Assembly: GCA_021463845.1 (NCBI GenBank)
Contig: JAJTXV010000001.1
Coordinates: 310,001-374,000 of the forward strand
DNA: 64,000 bases
From: Anaerolineales bacterium
GTDB lineage: Bacteria > Chloroflexota > Anaerolineae > Anaerolineales > UBA11579
Direction: 5' to 3'
Shown: piece after piece, positions 1 through 6,741 of the stretch
How positions within the stretch are numbered: position 1 is the stretch's first letter
Layout of the letters: the number at the start of each line of letters is the position of its first letter
The notes under the pieces: model-generated
Database searches by the model: none
Seen by the model: the letters and a program-made list of their open reading frames with translations, nothing else
Told to the model about the DNA's origin: nothing
Program-made: the position numbers and the translations under genes

Positions 1-1773
1 CTGCACCGCATCCACCACGGCTGGGTCCACGGTGCTCATTTCACCGGTGGGGCGGCAGGCGCCGATGCCCTGCGGGTTTTCGTAGTGCTCGATGATGGCG
101 TCTTTGGTAATGTCCCAGCGCAGGTCAGGCTCAAAGTCCTGAATGATGTTGCCTTCGCCATCCACGATCTGGCGCAGCAGGGTGGGGCGCATCTGAGCGC
201 CGTCGTTGGCGATGGTGGCGGCGGAGACCAGCACCTGCAGCGGCGAAGACAATATGTAGCCCTGGCCCACGCTGGTGATGTAGGTGTCACCGGTGGACCA
301 GTTCTCGCCCTGGTTCAGACGCTTCCAGGTGGGGTCGGGTACGAGACCGTCCACTTCGTAGGGCAGCTCGACGCCGAGGGCGCTACCGTAGCCGAGGGCG
401 CGGGCGTAGGTGCCAAGGCGGCAGATGCCGAGGCCTTCGGGGATCTCGCCCTCGTAGCCGCCACCGAGCTTGTAGAAGTACACGTTGCTGGAGTTGGCGA
501 TGCCGCCATAGAAATTCAACTGGCCGAAGCCGGCGCGGTTCCAGTCCACAAATTCACGGTTCTGGCCAGCTTCGCCTTCATAGAAACGCTGGCTGACCGT
601 GATGGAGCCAGGGGTCTGGACGACGGTTTCAGGTGAGACGATGCCTTCGTTCAGCGCGCCGACGGCGGTGACGATCTTGAACACGGAGCCGGCCGGCAGC
701 TCGGCGCCGGCGGCGTGGTTGATGAGCGGCTTGGTGGCGTCGGCCAGCAGCTGCTCGTAATAGTAGGCCGGGATGAAGCGGGTCATACGGTTGTTCTCAA
801 AGGTGGGCCAGGACACCATGGCGAGCAGCTCGCCGGTGCGCGGGTTCATGGCGATGATGACACCGCTGGTCATGTGGCTGCGCGGCAAGTCGCGGAAGTA
901 GGCGTTCCACAAGCCGAGCTCTTCTTCGATGATGGCAGAGGCGGCAGCCTGCAGGCGGGCATCAATGGTGAGTACGATGTTCTCGCCGGCCACCGCTTCA
1001 ATGGGCGGCTCAAGGTCACGCAGAATTTGCCCACCGGCATCGGTCTCAACGACGCGGCGGCCGGGCGTGCCGCGCAGCAGCTCATCGAAGTACAGCTCCA
1101 GGCCGCCATAGCCCACCTTGTCGCGGTTGGGTACGAAGCCCAGGGCACGCAAGGCATCTTCTTGAACGGCGGGGATGGGGCCGAGGTAGCCGATGATGGC
1201 GGCGGACATGGAGCCGGTGGGATATTCGCGGATGGGCTCAACCACTACCTCTACGCCCGGCCAGTCCACGGCGCGCTCTTTGACGGCGAGGGCCAGCTCG
1301 CGCGAGACATTGCATTGAATAGCAACGGGGTCATACGGCGAGAAGCTGGTCTGCAGCTCGATCATCTGGCGCACGCCCAGGTTGTCGCCGCATGGAATCA
1401 GCGGGTCATCAATGCTGCCGAGACTGACAGGTTGGTCGGTAAGCTCGGCCAAGGCGAAGACGATCTCTTCGATCTCGCCCTGGTCAGTGGGCAGGTTGGC
1501 GGGCACCACGACAATGTTGTAAGAGGGCACATTCTGCGCCAAGATGACGCCGTTGCGGTCATAGATCACGCCGCGCTGCGGGGCTAGGCTGATGACTTCG
1601 GTGCGGTTGCCCTCGGCCTGGCTGAGCCAGTTCTCGTGCTCCAGCACCTGCAAGTAGAACAGGCGCAGAATGAAGACGAAGAAGACCAGCGACACAAAGC
1701 CAAAAAAGGTGAAAAGACGCCACTGCTCCAGCGAGGTTGGGGACTTGGGAGGGGATCCGTTGAGAAGGCTCAT
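1..1773 (-). CDS. mrdA: Penicillin-binding protein 2 (elongasome transpeptidase), 3' end outside window
   Basis: This class B PBP cross-links peptidoglycan during side-wall growth. 591 codons are visible. One N-terminal membrane segment (about residues 20-40) is followed by the dimerisation region and the transpeptidase domain. The SxxK active-site motif SVFK has its serine at residue 363, and the SxN motif SSN is at 428-430. The third motif (KTG/KSG) must lie beyond the left edge, so the gene is partial. The start ATG at 1773 overlaps the mreD stop in an ATGA, which suggests translational coupling. Last visible gene of the mreBCD operon; this order fits PBP2 rather than the division enzyme FtsI. 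Confidence 0.93.
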   Translation of the reverse strand, partial: MSLLNGSPPKSPTSLEQWRLFTFFGFVSLVFFVFILRLFYLQVLEHENWLSQAEGNRTEVISLAPQRGVIYDRNGVILAQNVPSYNIVVVPANLPTDQGEIEEIVFALAELTDQPVSLGSIDDPLIPCGDNLGVRQMIELQTSFSPYDPVAIQCNVSRELALAVKERAVDWPGVEVVVEPIREYPTGSMSAAIIGYLGPIPAVQEDALRALGFVPNRDKVGYGGLELYFDELLRGTPGRRVVETDAGGQILRDLEPPIEAVAGENIVLTIDARLQAAASAIIEEELGLWNAYFRDLPRSHMTSGVIIAMNPRTGELLAMVSWPTFENNRMTRFIPAYYYEQLLADATKPLINHAAGAELPAGSVFKIVTAVGALNEGIVSPETVVQTPGSITVSQRFYEGEAGQNREFVDWNRAGFGQLNFYGGIANSSNVYFYKLGGGYEGEIPEGLGICRLGTYARALGYGSALGVELPYEVDGLVPDPTWKRLNQGENWSTGDTYITSVGQGYILSSPLQVLVSAATIANDGAQMRPTLLRQIVDGEGNIIQDFEPDLRWDITKDAIIEHYENPQGIGACRPTGEMSTVDPAVVDAVQ

Positions 1774-2267
1774 GGGTTCGCTGGGCTTGAGATCAGCTTG
1801 TTGAACTCTGTGATTAAAGCATTCACGGGTAAGAGAAGGATGAGATTCAGCAGCATGGTCGGCAGGGTGATGAGATTAAAAGCATCCCCGGCCGAAATGG
1901 GGTTATCCGAAAGCCAAAGGTAACCCAGGGTAATGATGTGGATGACAAGAGTGCCCAGAATGAGGCTTGTGAGCATGGTGAGCATGCGCACCTGCCAGAC
2001 GCGGCGGTGCAGCAGCTGGCAGACCAGGGCGGCGAGCGTATAGCCGGCGATCAGCACCAGGTCGGGCAGGGCGCTGGCGTAACCCATCATCACGCCCGCC
2101 ACCAAGCCCAGACGCCAGTCAGGCCGGTTCTCCTCCTGCAGCATCCAGGTGAGCAGGATCAGCAGCACCAGGTCCACGCTGCCTTGCAGCATGCGGATGC
2201 GCGGCAGCAGCGTGATCTGCAGCAACGTAGCGCCTAGCAGGAGCAGCACAGCCATCAGGGTGCGCAT
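1770..2267 (-). CDS. mreD: Rod shape-determining protein MreD
   Basis: Small integral membrane protein of the elongasome, 165 aa, the usual size of the family. The sequence is almost wholly hydrophobic, with five or so membrane segments, starting at MRTLMAVLLLLGATLLQ. Sequence conservation in MreD is low, so the call rests on size, topology and position: 3 nt after mreC and overlapping the PBP2 start by 4 nt. Confidence 0.87.
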   Translation of the reverse strand: MRTLMAVLLLLGATLLQITLLPRIRMLQGSVDLVLLILLTWMLQEENRPDWRLGLVAGVMMGYASALPDLVLIAGYTLAALVCQLLHRRVWQVRMLTMLTSLILGTLVIHIITLGYLWLSDNPISAGDAFNLITLPTMLLNLILLLPVNALITEFNKLISSPANP

Positions 2268-2270
2268 GGG

Positions 2271-3113
2271 CTACCCTCCGCTGTCCAGCAATGGGCTGAG
2301 ATCCAGGGGTTGGAAATTGACGATGACCAGCACGATCTCGAGACGGGTAAAATCCACGGCGGATTGCACCGAGGCGGTCTGGAACAGGGCGGTCGCCTCG
2401 CGGCGCACGTTGCTGAGCTGGCCGATGAGGATGTTGCCGGGGTAGGCGCCACCGATGCCGGAGGTGAAGACCAGGTCGCCGGCTTGCAGGTTGGCATCCA
2501 GCGGGATCAGGTCAATGCTGAGCTGGCTGGTGACGCTGCCGCTCAGCAGGCCATCCACCTCAGAGGGCTGCATGCGCACGCTCACCTGGCTGCCAGGGTC
2601 AGTGATCAGCTCCACGCGCGAAGCGGTGGCGGTCACCTGGGCAATGCGGCCAACCAGGCCTTGTTGAGAAACCACGGGCATGCCGCGGCGCAGGCCATCG
2701 TCTGAGCCGCGATTGATGATGATGTAGTGCAGGAAGGGACTGGGGTCCTGACCGATGACGCCGGCGGCCTGGTAGGTGTTCTCAGGCCGGGCGCGGGCAA
2801 AATCCAGCAGGGCGGAGAGCAGCTCGCCCTCGGAGACTTGCTGCTGGAGCGTGATGATCTCGGTCTGCAGCTGAGCATTCTCAGCGCGCAGCTGTGCATT
2901 CTCCTGGCGCAAGCTGGCAATATTGACCGGAGCGTTGACAAAATCCTGAATGGCCTGAAAGCGCGTATACAGCCAGCCTTGCGCACCCTCCACGGGGCTG
3001 AGGGCGCCGGTGAACAGCGGCGTCAGGTAGCCGCCCAGCGCCAGCAGCAGAATGCCGGCAGCCGCGACGATAAGGGCAACGAGACGGTAGGGATTATTGC
3101 GAGAGGGGCGCAT
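2271..3113 (-). CDS. mreC: Rod shape-determining protein MreC
   Basis: Extracytoplasmic scaffold linking MreB and PBP2, 280 aa. One N-terminal membrane helix (about residues 10-32) is followed by a coiled coil (about 65-95, with repeated LRxENAQL heptads) and the paired beta-barrel domain, including the family-typical stretch GLVGRIAQVT and VSVRMQPS. Lies between mreB (67 nt upstream) and mreD (3 nt downstream) in the same operon. Confidence 0.93.
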   Translation of the reverse strand: MRPSRNNPYRLVALIVAAAGILLLALGGYLTPLFTGALSPVEGAQGWLYTRFQAIQDFVNAPVNIASLRQENAQLRAENAQLQTEIITLQQQVSEGELLSALLDFARARPENTYQAAGVIGQDPSPFLHYIIINRGSDDGLRRGMPVVSQQGLVGRIAQVTATASRVELITDPGSQVSVRMQPSEVDGLLSGSVTSQLSIDLIPLDANLQAGDLVFTSGIGGAYPGNILIGQLSNVRREATALFQTASVQSAVDFTRLEIVLVIVNFQPLDLSPLLDSGG

Positions 3114-3180
3114 GGTGAACCGCAGAAATCATATCGCTAGAAGCTGCCTGCGGGCGGGCAGCAGGGGCGCTTAGGCGCCT

Positions 3181-4245
3181 TTAATCCATCTGGATCAGGA
3201 AGTGGCGGTAGGCCTCAATATCATCCAGCACCAGGCCGGCGCCGCGGGCCACGCAGGTGAGCGGGTCATCCGCCACCCAACAGCGCAGGCGCAGCTCGTC
3301 GCTGAGGCGCTCGGAGAGGCCTTGCAGCAGGGCGCCGCCGCCACACATGCACACGCCGTTGTCCATCACATCGCCCACCATTTCGGGCGGCACATCGTCC
3401 AGGGCTTCTTTGACGGCCTGGATGATCTGGTCCACTGGCCCGCTGAGCGCCTCGCGAATTTCGATCGAGGAGATCTCCAGCGTTTCGGGCAGCCCGGTCA
3501 CCAGGTTACGGCCGCGCACGGTGGTGGTCTTCTCTTCTTTGAGCGGGAAGGCTGAACCGATCTTGATCTTGACCTGCTCGGCGGCGCGCTCGCCGATGAG
3601 GATGTTGTACTTGTTGCGTATGTACTGGACGATGGCCTGGTCGAGCTCGTCGCCGGCGATGCGCAGGCTGCGGTTGGCCACCACCGAGCCGAGCGAGAAC
3701 ACGGTCACCTCAGAGGTGCCGCCGCCAATATCCAACACCACGCTGCCGCCCACCTGGTTGATGGGTAGGCCAACGGCCAGGGCCGAAGCGGTCGGCTCCT
3801 CGATGAGGTAGACCTCGCGAGCGCCGGCCAGCAGGGCGGCGTCGTTCACGGCGCGCTTTTCGACTTCAGTGACGCCGGTGGGCACGCCCACGACGACGCG
3901 CGGGCGGGGCAGGGGCACGATGCTCTGCTCGTGGGCCTTGCCGATGAAGTGGGCCAGCATGGCTTCGGTAATTTCAAATTCGGAGATGACGCCATCCCGC
4001 AGGGGGCGGATGACTACGACGTTCTTGGGGGCTCGGCCGGCCATTTCTTTGGCTACCTGGCCGACGGCGGCCTTGTCGCCCACCATGATGGGGATGCGGG
4101 ATTTCTTCTCAACTGCGACCCAGGAGGGCTCATTGATGACAATGCCTTTGCCGCGCACGAACACCAGGGTATTGGCGGTGCCGAGGTCAATGCCAATATC
4201 CAGCGAGAAGAAGCCAAGGATCCAGTTGAGGGGGTTAAAGGCCAT
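3181..4245 (-). CDS. mreB: Rod shape-determining protein MreB (actin homologue)
   Basis: ATP-binding filament protein that organises side-wall synthesis under the membrane. The phosphate-1 motif is DLGTANTLVFVRG, with the phosphate-2 motif VLDIGGGTSEVTVFS further on and a GGGALLQGL adenosine motif near the C-terminus. I choose ATG 4245 (MAFNPLNW, 354 aa), since the amphipathic N-terminus of MreB normally begins here; a TTG at 4272 would add nine residues without family support. First gene of mreB-mreC-mreD-mrdA. A perfect 8-bp hairpin sits about 30 nt upstream in the leader. Confidence 0.95.
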   Translation of the reverse strand: MAFNPLNWILGFFSLDIGIDLGTANTLVFVRGKGIVINEPSWVAVEKKSRIPIMVGDKAAVGQVAKEMAGRAPKNVVVIRPLRDGVISEFEITEAMLAHFIGKAHEQSIVPLPRPRVVVGVPTGVTEVEKRAVNDAALLAGAREVYLIEEPTASALAVGLPINQVGGSVVLDIGGGTSEVTVFSLGSVVANRSLRIAGDELDQAIVQYIRNKYNILIGERAAEQVKIKIGSAFPLKEEKTTTVRGRNLVTGLPETLEISSIEIREALSGPVDQIIQAVKEALDDVPPEMVGDVMDNGVCMCGGGALLQGLSERLSDELRLRCWVADDPLTCVARGAGLVLDDIEAYRHFLIQMD

Positions 4246-4274
4246 GGGCACCCCGGGAGCAGGCCAATGCAAAG

Positions 4275-4401: not shown

Positions 4402-4464
4402 CGTTCACCTAACTGGCAATCGTTCACCCAGCTTGAACAATTGGCTTGTTATGCTAGGTATAAT
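4402..4464 (+). promoter_or_regulatory. Putative glmS promoter with upstream direct repeats
   Basis: TATAAT at 4459-4464 lies about 67 nt before the ribozyme cleavage site. No good -35 is seen at the normal distance (TTGAAC at 4433-4438 is 20 nt away). Two direct copies of CGTTCACC at 4402-4409 and 4421-4428, with 19-bp periodicity, could be sites for an activator. They also lie in the upstream region of the divergent mreB gene. Confidence 0.45.
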
Positions 4465-4519: not shown

Positions 4520-4870
4520 ATCGAGGGAACAGCGCACGGCCCGGCATTTGTGGCAAAAACCACGGCCGGGTGACGAGGTTGAGTTGGGTTCTTGCGGAGC
4601 TACGCTCCGCTGGAGAAACGGAAAGCACGTTTCTCCACGCTTCACGGCGAAGATAAGTAGCCCCTGACGGGGTTGCGAAAATCGAATAGAAGTGCAGTTT
4701 ACGCTTTTTACAAACTGCATTAGTAACAGCGCCGCAACGAAGTTGCCGGCGCAGTTGCGTAGATCAGCGGATGCCACTCCGGGAGACCCGCCCCCGAATT
4801 TCCCTCCAAAATAGAAGCTGGCGCACAACGCCGCGTGGGTAACCATGCGGACAAACGCCCCAGCAGCGGC
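4520..4870 (+). ncRNA. glmS-type self-cleaving ribozyme/riboswitch with large insertion
   Basis: The leader between promoter and glmS has the ordered parts of the glucosamine-6-phosphate-dependent glmS ribozyme. The cleavage context AGCGC has its predicted cut between A4531 and G4532. P1 is CCCGGC 4540-4545 with GCCGGG 4565-4570, capped by GTGG/CCAC. The conserved TGACGAGG is at 4571-4578 and AGCGGATGCC at 4766-4775. A P2-like pairing joins GAGTTGG 4581-4587 to CCACTC 4774-4779. P4 is GCTGG 4817-4821 with CCAGC 4860-4864. P4.1 is CCGCGTGG 4831-4838 with CCATGCGG 4843-4850, capped by a GTAA loop and followed by ACAAAC. About 170-180 nt of extra hairpins (4590-4765) separate the two conserved core halves, which are close together in known examples. 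One core pair appears to be A-A instead of C-G. Known members are mostly from Firmicutes. The position directly before glmS supports the call. Confidence 0.8.
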
Positions 4871-4899
4871 CTGTAGACAATTGTTGGAGGATTCTGTCC

Positions 4900-6741
4900 A
4901 TGTGTGGAATTGTTGGTTATATCGGCCCGCGGGATGCGACGCCGATCATTTTGAACGGGTTGAAGCGCCTGGAATACCGCGGCTACGACTCAGCTGGCAT
5001 TGCTGTGCTTGAGGATGAGCATATCGAGATCCGGCGGGATGCGGGCAAGCTGGACCGCCTGTTCAGCACGGTAGCCGAGCAGCCCCTGCACGGCCAGCTG
5101 GGCATCGGCCACACCCGTTGGGCCACCCACGGTGAGCCCAACGTGCGCAACGCTCACCCGCACACCAGCGCCTCGGGCGAGGTTGTGCTGGTGCACAACG
5201 GCATCGTGGAGAACTACCTTGCGCTGCGTGAGGAGTTGGAAGCCGAGGGGGTCGAGTTCAAGTCTGACACCGATACCGAAGTTATCGTGCAGCTGGTGGA
5301 CCGCTTCATGGCCAAGGATGGCAGCCTGGAGGACGCCGCCCGCCAGGTGCTGCGCATGATCCGCGGCCATCACGGCATCGTACTGTTCAGCTCACGTCAG
5401 CCAGACCGCATCGTGGCGGCCCGCATGGGCAACGCCGGCGGCGTGGTGGTGGGCTTTGGCAAGGATGAGATGTTCATCTCATCTGACCTGCCGGCTATTC
5501 TGGAGCATACACGTGAAGTCGTGTTCCTGGAGTCTGGCCAGATGGCCGTGGTGACGCGCGAAGGCATGCGCCTGAGCAACCTGCAGGGCGAGACCCTGGA
5601 GCCGCATGTGGATGTCATCTTCTGGGACCCGGTGGCGGCTGAGAAGGGCGAGTATCGCCACTTCATGCAGAAGGAAATTCACGAACAGGTGCGTTCGTTA
5701 ACTGACACCATCTCCGGCCGGGTGGATTTTGAGACTGGGCGCATTCTGCTGCCTGACCTCAAGCTCAGTGAGAAGTTCGTCAAGGACCTGGAGAAGATCT
5801 ACATCATTGCTTGCGGAACGGCGGGCTATGCCGGGCAGATCGGCGCCAAGTATATTGAGCGCATCGCCAAGATCCCGGTGGAGTTTGACATCGCCTCCGA
5901 GTTCCGTTACCGCGACCCGCTGATCACCGACAAGATGGCCGTGCTGGCCATCAGCCAGTCAGGCGAGACAGCCGACACGCTGGCCGCCATGGCGGAGGGG
6001 CGCAAGCGCGGCGCAACGCTGTGGGCCAATATCAACATGATCGGCTCGCAGGCCATGCGCATTGCGGATGGCTACATTTCCATGCAGACCGGGCCGGAGA
6101 TCGGCGTTGCCTCGACCAAGGCGTATACCGCTCCGATCGTCAATCTATACATGCTGGCTATCTTGCTGGGCGAACTGCGCGGCACGCTGGATGACAATAC
6201 CCGCCGCGCCCTGGTGGCTGAGCTCAGCCATGTGCCTGAATGGGTCTCGGCCTGCCTGGAGCGCGAGGCCGAAGTAGAAGAAGTGGCCAAGGCTATCAAG
6301 GACATCACGCATTGTCTGTATCTCGGCCGCGGCATCAACACTTCTACCGCGTATGAAGGCGCCCTCAAGCTCAAGGAACTCTCGTATATCCATGCCGAGG
6401 GCTACCCCGCCGGCGAGATGAAACACGGCCCGATCGCTCTGGTGGATGAGGACATGCCGGTGATCGTGGTGGCCCCGCAAGATGATTTGTACGAGAAGAT
6501 GATCAGCCAGATCGAGCAGGCCAAGGCGCGCGGCGGCAAAGTGGTGGCGGTGGCCACGGTGGGGGATACGCTCATCCCCACGTTGGCGGACCATGTGCTC
6601 TGGATCCCCAAGACGCATCCGCTGCTCTCGCCAGTAGCTGCGGTCATCCCGCTGCAGATGCTGGCGTATCACATCGCCAGCCTGCGCGGGCTGGATGTGG
6701 ACCAGCCGCGCAACCTGGCCAAGAGCGTGACGGTCGAGTAG
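4900..6741 (+). CDS. glmS: Glutamine--fructose-6-phosphate aminotransferase (isomerising)
   Basis: Makes glucosamine-6-phosphate, the first step towards UDP-GlcNAc and peptidoglycan. 613 aa, the normal length. The N-terminal glutamine amidotransferase domain begins MCGIVGYIG, with catalytic Cys2 exposed after Met removal. Two SIS sugar-isomerase domains follow (about residues 290-430 and 460-600), with SQSGETADT in the first, and the C-terminus PRNLAKSVTVE is typical. A GGAGG at 4886-4890 is 9 nt before the ATG. Expression is probably controlled by the ribozyme-like leader; a strong terminator follows. Confidence 0.97.
   Translation: MCGIVGYIGPRDATPIILNGLKRLEYRGYDSAGIAVLEDEHIEIRRDAGKLDRLFSTVAEQPLHGQLGIGHTRWATHGEPNVRNAHPHTSASGEVVLVHNGIVENYLALREELEAEGVEFKSDTDTEVIVQLVDRFMAKDGSLEDAARQVLRMIRGHHGIVLFSSRQPDRIVAARMGNAGGVVVGFGKDEMFISSDLPAILEHTREVVFLESGQMAVVTREGMRLSNLQGETLEPHVDVIFWDPVAAEKGEYRHFMQKEIHEQVRSLTDTISGRVDFETGRILLPDLKLSEKFVKDLEKIYIIACGTAGYAGQIGAKYIERIAKIPVEFDIASEFRYRDPLITDKMAVLAISQSGETADTLAAMAEGRKRGATLWANINMIGSQAMRIADGYISMQTGPEIGVASTKAYTAPIVNLYMLAILLGELRGTLDDNTRRALVAELSHVPEWVSACLEREAEVEEVAKAIKDITHCLYLGRGINTSTAYEGALKLKELSYIHAEGYPAGEMKHGPIALVDEDMPVIVVAPQDDLYEKMISQIEQAKARGGKVVAVATVGDTLIPTLADHVLWIPKTHPLLSPVAAVIPLQMLAYHIASLRGLDVDQPRNLAKSVTVE

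Follow-up and report, generated by a model that had tools for sequence, protein, structure and literature searches.

The window analysed here, a stretch of 64,000 nucleotides from an Anaerolineales bacterium, contains on its forward strand the glmS gene, coding for a glutamine--fructose-6-phosphate aminotransferase. The leader of this gene, which starts at position 4900, holds an RNA of the glmS ribozyme class (4523–4890) with a core interrupted by structured insertions. Reading frames resembling mreB, mreC and mreD (1770–4272, resemblance only) run divergently from the adjoining glmS, and sequence similar to them also adjoins glmS in several relatives. A promoter scan gave nothing above chance and no full promoter match. 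The features of the locus are as follows:

4459–4464, + strand: TATAAT, a possible but weak −10 element, from sequence
4523–4529, + strand: GAGGGAA, 5' strand of helix P0, just 5' of the cut; partner, J3/4
4531–4538, + strand: cleavage site A4531/G4532 and 5' strand of P2.2 (C2-G3-C4, then A5, C6, G7)
4540–4570, + strand: P1 hairpin CCCGGC...GCCGGG, from sequence; relatives have P1 at the same place
4571–4578, + strand: TGACGAGG, as read in the initial annotation
4573–4578, + strand: ACGAGG, with the P2.1 5' strand C4574-G4575-A4576, then G4577; in all leaders inspected
4581–4587, + strand: P2 5' strand GAG-T-TGG; partner, CCACTC at 4774–4779
4590–4653, + strand: insertion 1, stem TCTT/AAGA (4590–4593/4650–4653) closing hairpins 4594–4610, 4611–4637 and 4638–4649
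4657–4676, + strand: H2 hairpin GTAGCCCC-TGAC-GGGGTTGC, covarying at all 6 pairs counted (66 relatives)
4678–4686, + strand: AAAATCGAA, with the P2.1 3' strand U4682-C4683-G4684
4691–4758, + strand: insertion 2, in the P2.1–P2.2 loop, hairpins 4691–4721 and 4723–4758, from the genus alignment
4765–4779, + strand: CAGCGGATG, P2.2 3' strand including G4770 (core G57), followed by the P2 3' strand CCACTC; in inspected leaders
4780–4796, + strand: P3, whose loop CCGC (4788–4791) forms pseudoknot P3.1 with GCGG at 4866–4869
4799–4809, + strand: J3/4 switch strand TTTCCCTCCAA, with either P0 or the Shine-Dalgarno as partner, but not both
4817–4864, + strand: P4 (4817–4823/4856–4864) enclosing P4.1 (4831–4850) with a GTAA loop (4839–4842), then ACAAA
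4884–4890, + strand: glmS Shine-Dalgarno TTGGAGG, complement of CCTCCAA in J3/4
4900–6741, + strand: glmS, 613 aa, two SIS domains and one GATase_6 domain (Pfam)

Using the core numbering of PMC7125110 and PMC11602151, A4531/G4532 corresponds to A-1/G1 and matches the cleavage site A-1/G1/C2 of the ribozyme core (PMC7125110); AGCG was present in nearly all relatives. The P2.2 pairs C4533-G4769 (C2-G56), G4534-C4768 (G3-C55) and C4535-G4767 (C4-G54) are all formed, and P2.1 pairs 4574–4576 with 4682–4684, followed by G4577, the same arrangement being found in relatives. A[AC]ATCG occurred in 118 of 120 relatives, the position of the P2.1 3' strand agrees with PMC11602151 and PMC7125110, and G4577 is the counterpart of the B. 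subtilis active-site G41 (residue roles from PMC11602151). P2, P3 and P4.1 with its GNRA loop were supported by covariation and P4 by reading of the sequence: P2 was 99.7% paired in 66 sequences (variants GAGTGG/CCACTC, GAAGG/CCTTC and GAGGG/CCCTC), P4.1 covaried at 8/8 pairs (66 relatives), and permutation of the P3.1 partners in 120 relatives supported the pseudoknot (z 7.2, 0/20000). All core elements listed in the initial annotation (cut context, P1, TGACGAGG, P4, P4.1 with the GTAA loop, and ACAAAC) were found where it had placed them; it had missed the outer stem TCTT/AAGA, the hairpin at 4638–4649, P0, the P3/P3.1 pseudoknot and the Shine-Dalgarno pairing.

Of the refuting outcomes named there, the two open to computation, absence of any covariance hit and absence of conserved pairing in relatives, did not occur. 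RF00234 matched the 5' part (4520–4644) with 20.9 bits (E 0.025), which is under the cut-off of 37, and separately matched P4.1 at 4832–4855. The weak score is explained by the split core, and relatives of the same design scored 37.2–61.9 bits, including L016 (55.5), L063 (61.6) and L067 (61.9). R1, a covariance model built from relatives, scored the window at 62.2 bits. Among 66 aligned relatives, 95.4% of the paired cells were filled by pairs, compared with 69.6% in shuffles, and 27 of the 32 pairs of the R1 structure changed on both sides (shuffles, 23.2 ± 1.3), with covariation seen in P2, H1, H2, P3 and P4.1 and compensatory changes present in the paired segments. Being itself fitted to the structure, this alignment is biased towards the R1 fold. 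Likewise, the permutation tests used throughout leave kinship in, so that their figures are not strict probabilities; many of the genomes are MAGs, and the sequences are related to one another. Since the parsing of loci was anchored on ACGAGG, CRGCGG and RGCG, conservation of these motifs in the parsed set is not independent evidence; it was also visible in the raw, unparsed leaders.

We consider it nearly certain that the leader belongs to the glmS ribozyme class, for which it qualifies by its elements and its place before glmS; it is a Chloroflexota subtype, a variant of the known class and not a new class. With the Firmicutes-type ribozyme (RF00234) it shares P2.1/P2.2, P2, P3/P3.1, P4/P4.1 with the GNRA loop, the cut context and the active-site bases, as well as its place before glmS. 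Unlike that type, it has two core insertions, P0, and a J3/4 complementary to the Shine-Dalgarno. The earlier claim that this leader, from a Chloroflexota, is a glmS-type ribozyme bearing a structured insertion is supported: covariance models match it and its paired segments covary in relatives. GlcN6P-dependent cleavage of the window RNA is highly probable, an inference for which there are no biochemical data.

One core pair had been called odd for being A-A. The pair is present (A4536/A4766, core positions 5-53) but is no defect: among loci with C4, C5 goes with G53 in 17/17 and A5 with A53 in 58/59. Because of this co-occurrence, A5/A53 is taken as a heritable alternative of P2.2, whose bulge appears to move. 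In most copies of the RNA that precede nitrogen genes (see below), position 4 is G, A or U, followed by C5, U6 and A53. These patterns would suit a single-base bulge that leaves its canonical position 6 for 5 or 4. Core mutants with shifted P2.2 bulges retain activity (PMC7125110).

The 5' strand of P0 is a perfect 7-bp match to TTCCCTC inside J3/4. Among 120 non-redundant loci, P0 was mostly located 0–4 bases from the cut, and a locus's own partners matched far better than permuted ones (z 11.6, 0/20000), with pairs such as GGGGAAGCG/CGCTTCCCC, AGGGGAT/ATCCCCT, GGAGAAA/TTTCTCC and others; as far as comparison of sequences can tell, there is little room to doubt P0. It was absent from the Chloroflexales-type members of other classes, L063, L065 and L067. 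Like the window, these have H1 and H2 at the same place, and the two that were tested (L063 and L067) exceeded the Rfam cut-off; unlike the window, they have a short J3/4 without P0.

The P0 and Shine-Dalgarno helices share part of J3/4 and differ little in duplex energy (−10.8 and −11.1 kcal/mol, respectively). The match between J3/4 and the Shine-Dalgarno in glmS leaders exceeded permuted matches (z 3.6, 9/20000). Part of this match to GGAGG is automatic, because pairing with the G-rich P0 strand already demands many C residues in J3/4, and only a test of the flanking base is free of that bias. The base beside CCTCC/GGAGG, which lies outside P0, formed a Watson-Crick pair in 25/37 leaders (A-T 17, T-A 5, G-C 3) against an expectation of 14.5 ± 2.3 (0/20000); the signal at the next flanking base was weaker (21/37 vs 14.6 expected, 293/20000). 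When the 3' domain was folded alone, J3/4 paired with the Shine-Dalgarno; the fold of the whole 3' product contained no J3/4–Shine-Dalgarno helix, pseudoknots being outside the folding model.

The explanation that we favour, with a little more than even confidence for the whole of it, is a subtype ribozyme in which cleavage drives a switch of J3/4 to the Shine-Dalgarno. Cleavage, ligand, switching and order of events are inferred. GlcN6P would bind the preserved core, and the RNA would cleave its own chain at A4531/G4532. In the uncut RNA, the P0 strand would pair with J3/4; the cut would detach the short 5' fragment from the mRNA, and therefore the Shine-Dalgarno could displace it from J3/4. 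Paired in this way, the Shine-Dalgarno would be hidden and translation of glmS would drop. RNase J is encoded in the genome (577 bits), and decay may therefore add to the repression of glmS. We regard the coupling of cleavage to Shine-Dalgarno masking, taken by itself, as an even bet; a point against the mechanism is that the 7-bp, GC-rich P0 may let go of the 5' fragment slowly. GlcN6P ribozymes have been contrasted with riboswitches using expression platforms (PMC2258182). Unlike the class as described there, the Chloroflexota versions appear to have such a platform, and sequence comparison supports two kinds of it, alongside the ribozyme fold, P0, the J3/4–Shine-Dalgarno pairing and the conserved core bases.

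The most serious competitor, which we nevertheless judge unlikely, is an ordinary glmS ribozyme that represses glmS in the Firmicutes manner, solely via decay by RNase J, with P0 doing no more than steadying the fold and the J3/4–Shine-Dalgarno match being a by-product of a C-rich strand. The presence of RNase J and the conserved core bases are compatible with it, and any CCTCC fits a GGAGG Shine-Dalgarno, but it does not account for a flanking base outside P0 that covaries with three pair types, nor for the nitrogen-gene copies, in which J3/4 pairs with an element that is not a Shine-Dalgarno, located before a terminator, in 34/38 leaders. For the cleavage-driven J3/4 switch, these copies are a supporting parallel, as they use J3/4 with a different downstream element plus a terminator.

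Such a second glmS-class RNA is located in the window's own genome (G000:C1:130716-130903), before glutamate synthase-domain genes (PF01645; GXGXG and GATase_6 domains). Downstream of this copy, GGAAGG and a terminator-like hairpin, ATGGGCACGCCATGTGCCCATTTTTG, were seen (G000:C1:130659-130903, L001/L070). Four other members of the genus also showed a second match. A chance origin of the copy in this genome was rejected, since several genus members keep it, some similar leaders pass the Rfam cut-off, and glnA or glutamate synthase genes follow in dozens of genomes. Among the matches listed from the pattern scan described below, the first recognised downstream gene was glnA in 35/80, a glutamate synthase gene in 8/80, glmS in 13/80 and none in 8/80, and an AraC/Ada-type or EamA gene came first in 16/80, glnA then following wherever the contig was long enough. 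At L071, L073, L074, L080-L082, L084, L085, L096, L110 and L133, AraC/Ada-type and EamA transporter genes are located between the RNA and glnA, and the pair looks as if inserted into the RNA–glnA unit. The RF00234 cut-off was exceeded by two leaders of glnA and by one further leader of a gene other than glmS (47.7, 42.9 and 47.6 bits, respectively). The glnA glutamine riboswitch of Rfam likewise precedes glnA, in other bacteria; unlike it, the leaders scanned matched RF00234 or nothing, none of seven nitrogen-gene loci matching the glnA riboswitch family at Rfam cut-offs and two of the seven giving RF00234. R2, a model of the nitrogen-gene type, picked up glmS-type loci as well, which a single class would predict; in the R2-searched sample, hardly any genome outside the window's order had two matches. 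McCown, Roth and Breaker (2011, RNA 17:728) are said to have found all but two glmS ribozymes in glmS mRNAs. No literature joining glmS ribozymes with Anaerolineae was found within a partial coverage, and the few papers naming both glmS ribozymes and glutamine synthetase appear, in the parts available, not to describe such leaders.

Leaders of glnA and glutamate synthase genes usually have CCCTTCC as J3/4 and, further downstream, the conserved element GGAAGGG. Seven bases perfectly complementary to J3/4 were present in 34 of the 38 non-redundant GGAAGGG leaders (shuffled, 9.2), and an intrinsic terminator followed GGAAGGG in 34/38 (shuffled, 1.5), compared with 3/45 glmS leaders. GGGCN can pair with the 5' arm of the terminator (z 3.7, 8/20000); as an antiterminator of 4–6 pairs it would be weak, and this is the least certain step. 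In these leaders the freed J3/4 would capture GGAAGGG, so that the terminator could form.

Extended to all copies, the Anaerolineales glmS ribozyme might be a regulon-wide GlcN6P sensor whose cut frees a strand that hides a Shine-Dalgarno or seizes an antiterminator, a proposal that we hold only tentatively, at slightly less than even confidence. The targets (glmS, glutamine supply and, in single cases, a DegT sugar aminotransferase, a CofD-like and an SIS protein) fit GlcN6P as the ligand. If the proposal is true, the glmS ribozyme, the textbook example of a ribozyme that depends on a metabolite, drives classical expression platforms and links the amino-sugar level to nitrogen assimilation; one lineage would have combined self-cleavage with translation and transcription switches, the cut becoming strand displacement, and GlcN6P would regulate glutamine synthetase mRNA. 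In E. coli, GlcN6P is a feedback inhibitor of the glutamine synthetase protein. Two cultured strains, Bellilinea caldifistulae and Levilinea saccharolytica, have the glnA type and make the reading testable. Further glmS-class RNAs were found before a DegT/DnrJ/EryC1 sugar aminotransferase gene (L041 and L057), before a CofD-domain gene resembling YvcK/GlmR (L165), and, above the Rfam glmS cut-off, before a large FAD-oxidase-like gene (L089).

It could also be that the fold was retained without being a ribozyme, as a non-cleaving switch or one that answers a different ligand; this applies most of all to the nitrogen-gene copies, in which P2.2 differs (positions 4–6 mostly GCT, ACT or TAT vs CAT) and the base preceding ACGAGG is unconstrained. 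This is improbable: A-1, G1, C2, ACGAGG, AUCG and GCGG are conserved in both the glmS and the nitrogen-gene types, the bulge shifts are of the kind that keeps activity in core mutants (PMC7125110), and targets in glutamine supply or amino sugars suit GlcN6P.

The five extra hairpins that the initial annotation had placed in the core are present (4594–4610, 4611–4637, 4657–4676, 4691–4721 and 4723–4758). As an oddity the structured insertion is real but not peculiar to this organism, Chloroflexota versions generally having hairpins there. Insertion 1 follows the P2 5' strand and precedes the P2.1 3' strand; at this site the majority of relatives carry one hairpin or two, H1 and H2, with a GNRA loop in H1 in 75/116. 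The distance from ACGAGG to CRGCGG had a median of 72 nt and a minimum of 45 in 120 non-redundant relatives and exceeded 150 nt only in the window's genus, in which the single H1 of the phylum is enlarged to a four-way junction and the P2.1–P2.2 loop usually carries two hairpins, with compensatory changes. Six genus members share the shape of insertion 1, in which 14/33 pairs showed changes on both sides in at least one sequence; in insertion 2, 7/26 pairs were kept in this way in at least one sequence of the genus alignment, and several relatives have only a few bases in its place. The second copies L220, L221 and L223 (of G008, G007 and G002, respectively) are enlarged too, with hairpins at the two insertion sites of the glmS copy. 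McCown et al. (2011) reportedly described Deinococcus-Thermus variants with additional core stems and changed supporting parts.

That the insertion hosts a second sensor, as had been suggested, recognising a different metabolite or a protein, is very improbable and was rejected: its bulk and stable folding (−46 and −31 kcal/mol for the two parts) speak for it, but its size and sequence vary freely within one genus while the stems are kept, core-keeping relatives have just a simple hairpin or two instead, and the relatives compared revealed no conserved loop or aptamer-like motif apart from the frequent GNRA loops of H1. The inserted hairpins would rather be peripheral scaffolding.

R1 matched in 159/249 genomes of the class and in 58/301 genomes across the phylum, other classes included, and scanning named genomes for a DNA pattern gave at least 119 stretches; owing to the search filters, these counts are lower bounds. 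Among the 80 matches listed from the pattern scan, all were from Chloroflexota except three Bipolaricaulota MAGs and one match in Paenibacillus (L148), which lies inside a coding-like stretch, lacks the core and was taken as chance. In the three MAGs labelled Bipolaricaulota (L129, L137 and L144), whose RNA may be due to transfer or to mis-binning, it precedes a gene coding for SIS and GTPase domains.
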